From Haematococcus lacustris (lineage: Eukaryota; Chlorophyta; Chlorophyceae; Chlamydomonadales; Haematococcaceae): 64,000 nt of DNA. The stretch covers positions 4,358,026 through 4,422,025 of the forward strand of contig JASKMD010000018.1 of NCBI GenBank assembly GCA_030144725.1. The letters are read 5' to 3'. This document shows, one piece after another, positions 1 through 60,690 of this stretch; within the stretch, counting starts at the first letter, position 1; each line of letters opens with the position of its first letter. Under the pieces are notes generated by a model. The model ran no database searches. It saw only the letters and a program-made list of their open reading frames with translations, and was not told where the DNA came from. The translations under genes and the position numbers were made by a program.

Positions 1-3000
1 CTGGCAGCAAACTGCCAGTTGGTCGGGATGTAACCATGGGTGCCGGTGCCCTGCTGGCAGTTGCATGGGAGCCTTAGGTCTGGAAGGTGGTGGTCGGAGG
101 GGTGCAGCTTCTGACATCACGAGAGGGCGTTGTCAGCATGTGAGAGGCGGGGGAGTAAGGAGGAGGGCCGGGAACTCACCCCTGAGCTGCCGTCAGTGTC
201 CAGCATGAGCTGGAAATATCGCACATGTGCTGCCGTGGCGTCGGGAACAAACCTGCACATGTGAGCGGGGCGGTGAGAGGCAGTGGAGGAAGGGAGTGGT
301 GGCAGGCCATGGTGGTGGTATGGGCCTGGAATGTCTTGGCACCCCCATGCTGATGGCACATCCGGATGCTGGTGGCGCTGAGCCAAATACTTATTCCGGC
401 ATACGCTGGCCATATTGGCGTTGAAGACGGGAGCTGACATCACCAGCAAATAGGTTCATGATCCTCTAGCAAGGATGCGATCATACCATGGTGCTGCAGA
501 TGGCATCAGATTTAAACAGAGCCAAGGGCCAGCCTGCCCTTCTGCTCCCCTCTTTTCCATCGCAGGTACCCCTTGGCCCTGACCCGCCCCCTCCCATGCT
601 CCTGCTTGTGACGTAGTGTCATAAGTGCTTGTGAGATGTTCAGGTGTCCATGTATCCAGTACATACACCACATCTATCCCCACCCCTTGCCCTCCCAGCT
701 TAGCCCCTCCCAGTTAGTCCTCTTAGCTGACCTGGTCAGCAGCCGGCCCAGCTGCTTGCCATTGAGGTGGCCCTTGGACTCGCGGTCCAGCTCCCTGAAC
801 ACGTCCACCAGCCTCACCCGTGCCTCGCCCATGGAAGCCTGTGGCCAGCAGCTGCAGGAAGCTGCACTCCAACCTCGGGAGGAGCAGCTGCTGACCAGTC
901 ATACCCTCCCACCCCGCTTGGTCTGCCATGTGTTTCCTGTCCGCTGCCGCCGCTTGCCCAGTCAAGCCGGCTGCTCTCCTCCCTCTCTGCCTACAGGACT
1001 GGTCACCGGTCTGCGTGCTGGCCTGCAGTGGGCTGTGGTGTAGGTGTGTGTGACTTGCTACTCTAGATTCTGGCTAGGAAGTGTGCTGGCCTGCAACAGC
1101 CTATGCAAGCGTGGCACCCTGGCGATGACCCAAAGCCAGCCTGCTTGACCAGCACACTCCCTAGCCATAACCAGGTTTAGGGAGTGTCACACACACCTAC
1201 ACACCTACACACAGACGTCAGTGCAGGGCAGCAGCAGACCGGTGTAGGGGAGACTAGACCAGGCCTACCACACCCAGGCTACGCCGTGTCAGGCTTGCCA
1301 CCAGCAGGCCACGACACCCACCAGCAGCAGCTCAAACACGTCGGCTCCCTTGGAGCTGGTGTCGCCGATGTCAGGGCTGAGCTCCTCAGCCTGCCCGTCC
1401 TCGACCTGCTGCCCTCTGGGGCTGGGGGACAGGCCGCCCCCACGCCCGCCCCTGCCCTCCAGCACTTCGTCACCACCTGAGGCAGGGCAGCAGGCCAGTG
1501 CTGGATGACCCACGTGTGCTGTAGACGTGTATCGCCAGCAACGATGCCCTTGGAAGTGCCCTTTGGAAGTACCCTTTGGAGTGCCCTTTGAATTGCCCAT
1601 CGCCTCCCGTGTATAAGTCGGTGTGGGCAAGAGTCAGCAGATATGAGCCTAGTGGCGCAATGCCTCCTAGGAAGCGGCCCAGTTCCGCGGAGCAAGAGCC
1701 GCATCCGACTGAAAGCCCGCGAAAACAAGGTCCGCTGCAACTATGCAGTCCTGTGAGCTCCGCGCTGCTCACATCGCTACTGTTCATGCCAGCGCAGGTC
1801 CTAGCACCCCTCCAGGCAAACAACGCGAGGAGCGAAGGGCTGAATGGAAAAACCAGCGACAACAGGTGCCCCCCCCGCCCCCCCGCCTTGTATGCCCCAG
1901 CACTGCGCATTGGGGAGAGCAGGTGGCGTCCACTGGAGCTGTGCTACTGGCCAGAGCAGGGGAAGCTGCCAGCCAAGGGCAAGGAGTACCCTGGCTTGGG
2001 GTACAAGCGGCTGCGAGACAAGCCACCCAAGGCCCAGCAGCAGCAGCAGGCTGCCGCGGCACAGTAGTGTGCCCCCTTTGTTGAGCTGTCATCACCTTAC
2101 ATTAGTACATGTTTTGTCATGCCAACTCTACGTCATAGCCCTTCGGGGTCAGGCAATGCTGTAGGTGGTAGGCGACCGTGACCATGTGTAGGCCATGTGC
2201 ATGCCATGCGATGGGAACTCCACACAGACAAAAACCCTGTTTTGTAGTGGTCCACAATTAGTGTGGTCGACTGCAATGAAGGCTCAAGGTTGAGGGCCAA
2301 GGTGCTGGATGACCCACGGTAGCGTTCTTGACTTCGACAGTGTATCGCCAGCAGTGACGAGAAGAAGAATGGAGGTGTGCTGTGTCAAGTCCCAGTGGTG
2401 CAGTTCTGCTGGGCATTGAGACTAGGCTGAGCTGAGACTGTTTGCATTGCAGCTGAACAGGATGCTGTGCTGTGCTGGCTGATAGCCTGTTGGGGGTGCT
2501 TCTTCATTCTGTCATGCTACACAGAAACAACCATGAGGTTGCCTGACTACCATGGCAGCTGGGTGCTGCAAGGCCCTGGGGTGGCGGGGCCACAGGGAGA
2601 AAGGTGGATGTGGAGCTGTGATTGAGTCAGTGGTACACCATTATTGTCTCACCGTCATCCAGCACGGAGGAGGCCTGCGACGAGTTTTGCTCAGCAGCGC
2701 TGGTGCAGCTGTTGCTGCCAGCCAGGCCACGCCGCTTCTCCCGGACCTGTGGCATGCATGAAGGCGGCCCCTGGCACCATGACATGGCATATAGTCAGTG
2801 GCAGGCAGGGCTGAACTATTTTAGAGATTGGAGGGCAGGGTTGTTTGAGGGTGTAGAGAGGGAAAGGAGCAGGGTGAAATGAGGGTAAGCAAGACAAGAG
2901 TAAGCTGTGTGTGTGTTTGGATGGGGAGCAGGGAGAAGAGGGAGAGGAGGAAGGTGAGGGAGGAGGTCAGTCGGGGAGGCCAGGGGATAGGAAGGAAGGA

Positions 3001-60316: not shown

Positions 60317-60690
60317 CAGCCCCCTTGTCCCTCAATAGGGCCTCGATTTGAGCTGGACCAGTAGTGGCCACTAGCGGCCACTAGCGGGAATACTAGGGGC
60401 CACTAGTGGCCTGACTCAAATGGTGTTAATGGGCTGTGTGGAGTATACCCAATGCACATGGACATGGTGCATGAGTGCCTACCACCTACACTATTGCCTG
60501 ACCGCGAGGGCTATTGTGTAGAGTTGGCATGACCTGCATGCACTAAGTGTAAGCTGCTGACAGCCTAAGAGGGGCCACACATTACTGTGCCTCAGCAGCC
60601 TACTGCTGCTGTGCCTTGGGAGGCTTGTCTCGCAGCCACTTGTAGCTTAGGCCAGGGTACTACTTGCCCTTGGCTGGCTGCAACTCTGTG
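60317..60690 (-). mobile_element. Element copy G: ORF end and type II tail
   Basis: On the minus strand, about 60,690-60,590 reads as the family C-terminus (YPGLSYKWLRDKPPKAQ) with two in-frame stops. The type II tail runs to the GGGACAAGGGGGCTG terminus near 60,317, with CATTTGAGTCAGG pairing to CCAGCTCAAATCG around nested CTAGTGGCC arms. It lies just downstream of the PRMT-like gene's stop codon, so it may supply part of that gene's 3' flank. No clean flanking repeat was found. Confidence 0.7.

Follow-up and report, generated by a model that had tools for sequence, protein, structure and literature searches.

Fanzors are under study as genome-editing tools. They have been defined by the pattern D-X(125,275)-[TS][TS]-XX together with a zinc finger (PMC3627910), and two features, the DPG motif and an alternative position of the catalytic E, separate them from TnpB (PMC10711439). 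The closest described systems are CRe-1, CRe-2 and CRe-3 of Chlamydomonas reinhardtii, Fanzor1 elements that were described as non-autonomous Helitron2 (Bao and Jurka 2013, PMC3627910). According to that description, 150, 70 and 35 loci were reported, the ends match those of Helitron-1_CRe, and copies show 5' truncation and internal deletions with intact 3' ends, for which one-ended transposition was proposed. Their target duplications are approximately 7-19 bp long, some much longer, and lie behind TTTT or T-rich tetranucleotides (PMC3627910). In Auxenochlorella, which has a repeat-poor genome, the most abundant repeat is described as uncharacterized and Fanzor-coding (PMC12633428). For Haematococcus pluvialis, an assembly of 316.0 Mb in total with 50.8% transposable elements has been reported (PMC10400597).

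We analysed a 64-kb stretch of Haematococcus lacustris DNA, hereafter the window, and the family of repeats that it contains. Our preferred reading, which we consider fairly likely, is that of a Fanzor1-like gene on a Haematococcus mobile element. The element would be about 3.75 kb long, have an intron throughout the family, spread by one-ended transposition with an enzyme acting in trans and encode what is probably an RNA-guided nuclease. Nine copies of one such family were placed within the window through nucleotide similarity: A, B, C, D, a small 3' piece near 22 kb, G, F, E (nested in F) and K (Table 1). An earlier note on this DNA had proposed about ten copies with common sequence. The family and the common sequence stood, aligned pairs of window copies being 67-100% identical (mostly 71-89%); the number did not, since nine copies were placed and not clearly ten, with C as the weakest assignment among them. 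In copy C, 68 bp (6277-6344) are 100% identical to a stretch in the 5' part of B and the last ~16 bases, terminal GAGGGCCAAGGTGCTG, are common to the family by eye, while no alignment to the reference element was obtained. The bodies of A and B each consist of a 5' part joined to a 3' part across an internal deletion. Only a 3' fragment of the element is present in D, G, K and the 22-kb piece. Copy F has a degraded, frameshifted gene and holds a (CCCGCC)n array and copy E. The latter was inserted in the opposite orientation and has a third kind of 3' end, likewise ending in GCTG; its insertion structure, a 12-base duplication behind GCTG, was found by eye and has no control. No clear flanking duplication was seen by eye around the 22-kb fragment, and none that was convincing around K. 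Two copies of the D locus (L001 and L002) lie 0.6 Mb apart on one contig and are 99.7% alike over the match; either the segment was duplicated recently or the assembly has joined haplotypes.

Table 1. Features located in the 64-kb window (positions are those of the window; GCTG is the target tetranucleotide, and duplications are the flanking target repeats)
Feature	Position	Strand	Structure or remark
Copy A	1500..2318	+	GCTG 1500-1503; left duplication 1504-1514; body 1515-2307; right duplication 2308-2318
WRPLELC in copy A	1924-1944	+	
Copy B	4381..5044	+	GCTG 4381-4384; 7-bp duplication 4385-4391 and 5038-5044; body 4392-5037
DRDCNAALNM in copy B	4586-4615	+	
WRPLELC	4637, 43618	+	
WRPLELC	41997	-	
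Copy C	6048..6374	+	GCTG 6048-6051; duplications 6052-6061 and 6365-6374; body 6062-6364
Copy D	8811..9271	+	GCTG 8811-8814; duplications 8815-8825 and 9261-9271; body 8826-9260; type-2 3' end
Small 3' fragment	22232..22381	+	Ends in GGTGCTG
Copy G	35833..36083	+	3' fragment, last bases (GGGGGCTG) missing
Copy F	39502..43996	+	GCTG 39502-39505; duplications 39506-39514 and 43988-43996; body 39515-43987
(CCCGCC)n array inside copy F	40318-41163		141 units; long open frames on both strands
Copy E	41675..42223	-	GCTG 42223-42220; duplication 42219-42208 and 41686-41675; body 42207-41687
DRDCNAALNM in copy E	42039-42068	-	
GIDPGVTQ in copy F	42341-42364	+	
Family intron in copy F	42843..42978	+	
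EHRTS in copy F	43170-43184	+	Frame differs from that of GIDPGVTQ (frameshift)
Copy K	60317..60681	-	3' fragment, intact type-2 end at 60317
Very long open frame	29726-33490	+	1,254 codons, stop to stop; CAG-type repeats
Very long open frame	49545-53549	+	1,334 codons, stop to stop; CAG-type repeats
U2 spliceosomal RNA gene	54790-54979	-	Complete; Rfam RF00004, 148 bits
Tandem array	17381-17594		Clean; 40-bp units
Tandem array	62753-62971		Clean; 6-bp units
Tandem array	63653-63989		Clean; 8-bp units

The remainder of the window includes a U2 gene, tandem arrays and very long open frames. Four long frames of the window, including the two in Table 1, had no Pfam match at E<=0.001.

Those insertions of the family for which a flanking repeat was detected follow a strict pattern; this pattern and its published parallel are additions to what the earlier note had described. 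In a first scan of 87 distinct 3' ends from the window and from fetched loci, which included the element's own last bases, a flanking duplication scoring at least 12 was found in 27 ends and in 5 of 261 swapped-flank controls; the duplications associated with the repeat are not a product of chance. Because the element's own last bases had been included, the flank test was repeated using only the sequence beyond the element. In 23 out of 88 distinct 3' ends, 9 or more flank bases were then found again upstream as an exact copy, compared with 9 of 428 swapped flanks. Duplications among these 23 are 9-14 bp long and are directly preceded by GCTG in 21 cases, by GCTT in one and by ACTG in one. Collection of the 88 ends relied on a search pattern whose last four letters are GCTG, up to three substitutions being allowed, so that the GCTG of the element's own end is partly a matter of selection, which the GCTG of the target is not. 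The 65 ends in which no duplication was detected may be old or damaged, or their duplications may lie beyond the fetched flank. In the window, duplications accompany A, C, D and F, as well as B with 7 exact bases and E with the 12 bases seen by eye. Three 3' ends were distinguished, reading ...CCAAGGTGCTG, ...ACAAGGGGGCTG and ...AATAATGTGCTG, and all of them finish in the target tetranucleotide. The first part of the 3' UTR differs little between types 1 and 2 (11 and 5 copies compared; K approximately 0.13-0.15), but K rises above 1 from alignment column 136 to column 310, so the terminal module seems to have been exchanged.

The family is abundant and its copies are anchored at the 3' end. 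Exact 19-mers taken at element positions 1653, 2490 and 3416 had 435, 1,084 and 3,955 matches, respectively, in the 307.9-Mb genome of Haematococcus lacustris/pluvialis, counts that may include both haplotypes or duplicated stretches; the reversed patterns, used as a control, had none. In a set of 30 long loci, the same 19-mers are present in 27, 27 and 28. The 19-mer at position 3416 is C-terminal, and its count corresponds to thousands of copies in the genome, with a steep excess of 3' ends over 5' parts; the type-1 end has 1,391 exact occurrences. Many copies are 5'-truncated or internally deleted. We take the full length to be about 3.75 kb from six copies with both duplications, which measure 3,733-3,805 bp. 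Nine internal junctions were examined, and the six that were readable displayed microhomology or short filler, with GT...AG boundaries in none.

The intron bears on the route of copying. As the earlier note had it, copy F contains a spliceosomal intron, and this is a feature of the family: a matching donor context and a ...CAG acceptor occur at the same place in 27 of 30 genomic loci (L031-L060), with intron lengths of 108-180 bp. Genome-wide, 727 exact exon-intron junctions and no spliced junction were found. The counts do not support spliced mRNA as a template, so that the element was copied from DNA or by reverse transcription of unspliced RNA.

Under one-ended transposition, the 3' end would be used nearly always and joined beside a GCTG target, 9-14 bp of the target would be duplicated on insertion, and the 5' end would be set where copying stopped or switched template. 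Searches with Pfam retrieved no transposase domain in 62 family proteins, nor in four frames from the 5' halves of two long copies, where the only match was to AF-4, below the cut-off. Because no such domain was seen in the element, its mobilising enzyme probably acts in trans, with a Helitron-like HUH enzyme as first choice by analogy with the published parallel. The Helitron replication domain (PF14214) has 18 matches in the genome, seven of them strong. Two of these loci (L066 and L067), which are 89% alike over their first 5 kb, contain the hairpin CCGTCCGATGTGGGACGG and an apparent end at CTAG followed by T. Neither of the two loci compared, out of the 18 matches, has ends in common with the Fanzor1-like family; these two were set aside as direct partners, and no partner enzyme was found. 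Terminal hairpins noticed by eye in the family were also discarded, as in three of five ends shuffled sequences folded as well as the terminal 40-mers.

A second route would be target-primed reverse transcription in trans, in which a LINE-type enzyme nicks the strand complementary to GCTG, an unspliced nuclear RNA pairs with the freed end through its 3' GCUG, and the cDNA stops early, leaving a truncated 5' end and a target duplication. Such priming is expected to yield 5' truncation, 3' anchoring, duplications of 9-14 bp and 3' microhomology with the target, all as seen here, and template jumps would fit the internal deletions. However, the junction counts oblige this route to use an RNA other than the spliced mRNA, and no poly(A) or simple tail is present at 40 aligned ends. 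We regard it as rather unlikely.

The protein itself appears to have mattered while the element spread. Median pairwise dN/dS was 0.25-0.47 across the six dS classes that held pairs, a ratio lowered by the way the loci were obtained, through protein similarity and filtering for stops. The 21 copies compared were the stop-free ones with GIDPG among 27 loci with exon 1, out of the 30 long loci. These values suggest purifying selection and that the protein was kept during the spread of the element. Its probable role is that of an RNA-guided nuclease working, like TnpB, to the advantage of the element, with a guide RNA and DNA cutting as presumed parts of that role. Signals of a guide RNA are split. 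Compared with shuffles, the 3' UTR folds with z -0.32 in type 1 and z -4.30 in type 2, and the alignment of 40 ends has 38 consensus pairs, four of them with changes on both sides. Between end types, K is 0.13 in the conserved portion of the 3' UTR and 0.148 in the intron, and the argument from 3' UTR conservation was dropped because the intron is conserved to the same degree.

Alternatively, the Fanzor itself would break the target, with GCTG as its recognition motif, and repair would copy the element from the 3' end. The tetranucleotide before the duplication sits where a TnpB/Fanzor target motif would be expected, judging from the TAM/guide layout given in PMC10711439, and the apparent purifying selection on the protein also agrees with such a role. 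However, with the flank as guide and GCTG as motif, the right junction of every insertion would itself be a fitting site, so that the enzyme would cut its own insertions; either the motif differs or the enzyme works otherwise. The divided folding results, a 3' UTR conserved like the intron and a zinc finger that is not recognisable also count against this route, which we find improbable. Bolder still, a Fanzor without a zinc finger could have taken over transposition altogether, recognising GCTG, breaking the target and using its own GCTG 3' end to prime or guide one-ended copying. We give this very little credence; were it true, any of thousands of 3' ends could give rise to a guide RNA that fits the very site of that insertion, a built-in self-targeting problem needing some solution.

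The assignment of the protein rests on ordered motifs. DRDCNAALNM in B and E, GIDPGVTQ followed by EHRTS in F (though in different frames) and WRPLELC as the C-terminus of the family were all located where the earlier note had read them. The third motif has been lost in copy F, which reads VDSAAMQH at that place; the full set is present in genomic copies elsewhere, for which the note had proposed to look. Using the gene pieces of copy F as the query, 8,000 candidates were scored and 1,057 proteins were retrieved at E<=0.001, which indicates that many Haematococcus 'hypothetical proteins' contain transposon pieces. Among these, 120 relatives were listed, all named Haematococcus lacustris. The ordered set DPG, E..[TS][TS] and RDxNAAxN occurs in 62 of these 120, many of which are partial gene models, and in none of 2,400 shuffles; the query itself held most of the tested motifs. 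DPG followed by E..[TS][TS] within 100-260 residues was found in 72 of the 120 listed proteins, and in 35 of the 62 with the full set the D-to-E spacing is 185 residues. The RuvC-III form of the family, LDRDCNAALN, fits RDxNAAxN. Leaving out its zinc finger, the published Fanzor pattern, a loose expression, matched 117 of the 120 listed proteins.

No C4 zinc finger (CxxC...CxxC) was found between RuvC-II and RuvC-III in any of the 120 listed proteins, with either strict or relaxed spacing, and any CxxC at all in this stretch was present in three. Its place is taken by a Pro/Lys-rich linker of approximately 120-135 residues from [TS][TS] to RD. In VDEHRTSRVSS, the E is followed by six residues and then by S where the first zinc-finger C is expected; the position agrees and the cysteine is absent. 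Comparisons with Pfam, NCBIfam and the PDB were nearly blind to the family, and the PDB searches retrieved no relevant relative of its protein. PF07282 was matched at E<=0.01 by four of the 62 members of alignment A3, and precomputed PF07282 annotation exists for four of the 120 listed proteins; one protein outside A3 (P0007) reached 29.8 bits, against a cut-off of 26.3, over a match of 14 residues. As a yardstick, a TnpB profile was built from 77 bacterial sequences of the IS200/IS605 type, InsQ of E. coli K-12 with 76 relatives. They were taken from bacterial loci, since a protein search for TnpB had returned a list of nothing but near-identical sequences of E. coli type. HMMER comparisons between the family and this TnpB set, in both directions, gave nothing below E 0.07. 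With hhalign, RuvC-I was placed on RuvC-I in a weak match with E 0.0062 at a probability of 6%, compared with E 0.19 for a reversed control. The profile search that the earlier note had called for thus returned matches that are weak, the one by hhalign lying in the right place. A scan of viral contigs with alignment A3 found no relative.

The TnpB/Fanzor identity proposed in that note holds as regards the ordered motifs, with the Fanzor-specific DPG and alternative E, and falls short as regards the zinc finger, the strength of the profile matches and a PDB relative. Membership is likely on sequence grounds, yet the defining zinc finger was searched for and not found, and for this reason the family protein is best named Fanzor1-like. 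That the motifs arose by convergence in a protein that is not a Fanzor would agree with the missing zinc finger expression, the lack of a relevant PDB relative and the weak profile matches, but is highly unlikely given that 62 of the 120 listed proteins, and none of the shuffles, have the motifs in order and in the forms specific to Fanzors, and given the RuvC-I to RuvC-I match by hhalign and a mobility that is the same as in the described Fanzor1 elements of a related alga.

The likeness to the TnpB proteins of IS200/IS605 consists in the alignment of RuvC-I with RuvC-I; similarity is below significance, and the Haematococcus protein differs in its alternative position of the E and in having no recognisable zinc finger. 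The Auxenochlorella repeat is alike as an abundant green-alga repeat carrying a Fanzor; however, that genome is repeat-poor, and the passage on the Fanzor in PMC12633428 gives no insertion pattern. In the openly accessible literature on Haematococcus with Fanzor or Helitron, we found no published account of the family. Haematococcus has hundreds of copies that bear the gene (the 5'-half 19-mer has 435 exact matches), thousands of 3' ends and a strict insertion rule, which makes it a good test ground for the role of Fanzors, where polymorphic insertions, guide RNA and cutting could be set against the target site.

The CRe elements, judged from their published description, are the nearest parallel. 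According to PMC3627910, they have in common with the Haematococcus family a Fanzor1 gene with introns, 3' ends that are nearly always intact, truncated 5' ends that go together with internal deletions, a tetranucleotide immediately before the target duplication and extra sequence at some 5' ends. Against the same description, the Haematococcus target is GCTG rather than TTTT or T-rich, the duplications are 9-14 bp rather than approximately 7-19 bp or, in some cases, much longer, and the element itself finishes in the target tetranucleotide, whichever of the three observed 3' ends it has. Furthermore, the Haematococcus protein has no recognisable zinc finger and its copies seem to be more numerous, and whereas the CRe ends match Helitron-1_CRe, those of the Haematococcus family are unlike the two Helitron loci compared. 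A close counterpart of this mobility has thus already been described in Chlamydomonas; what looks new in Haematococcus is the GCTG target, the narrower range of duplication lengths, the set of three 3' modules, a protein in which no zinc finger was recognised and a seemingly larger expansion.
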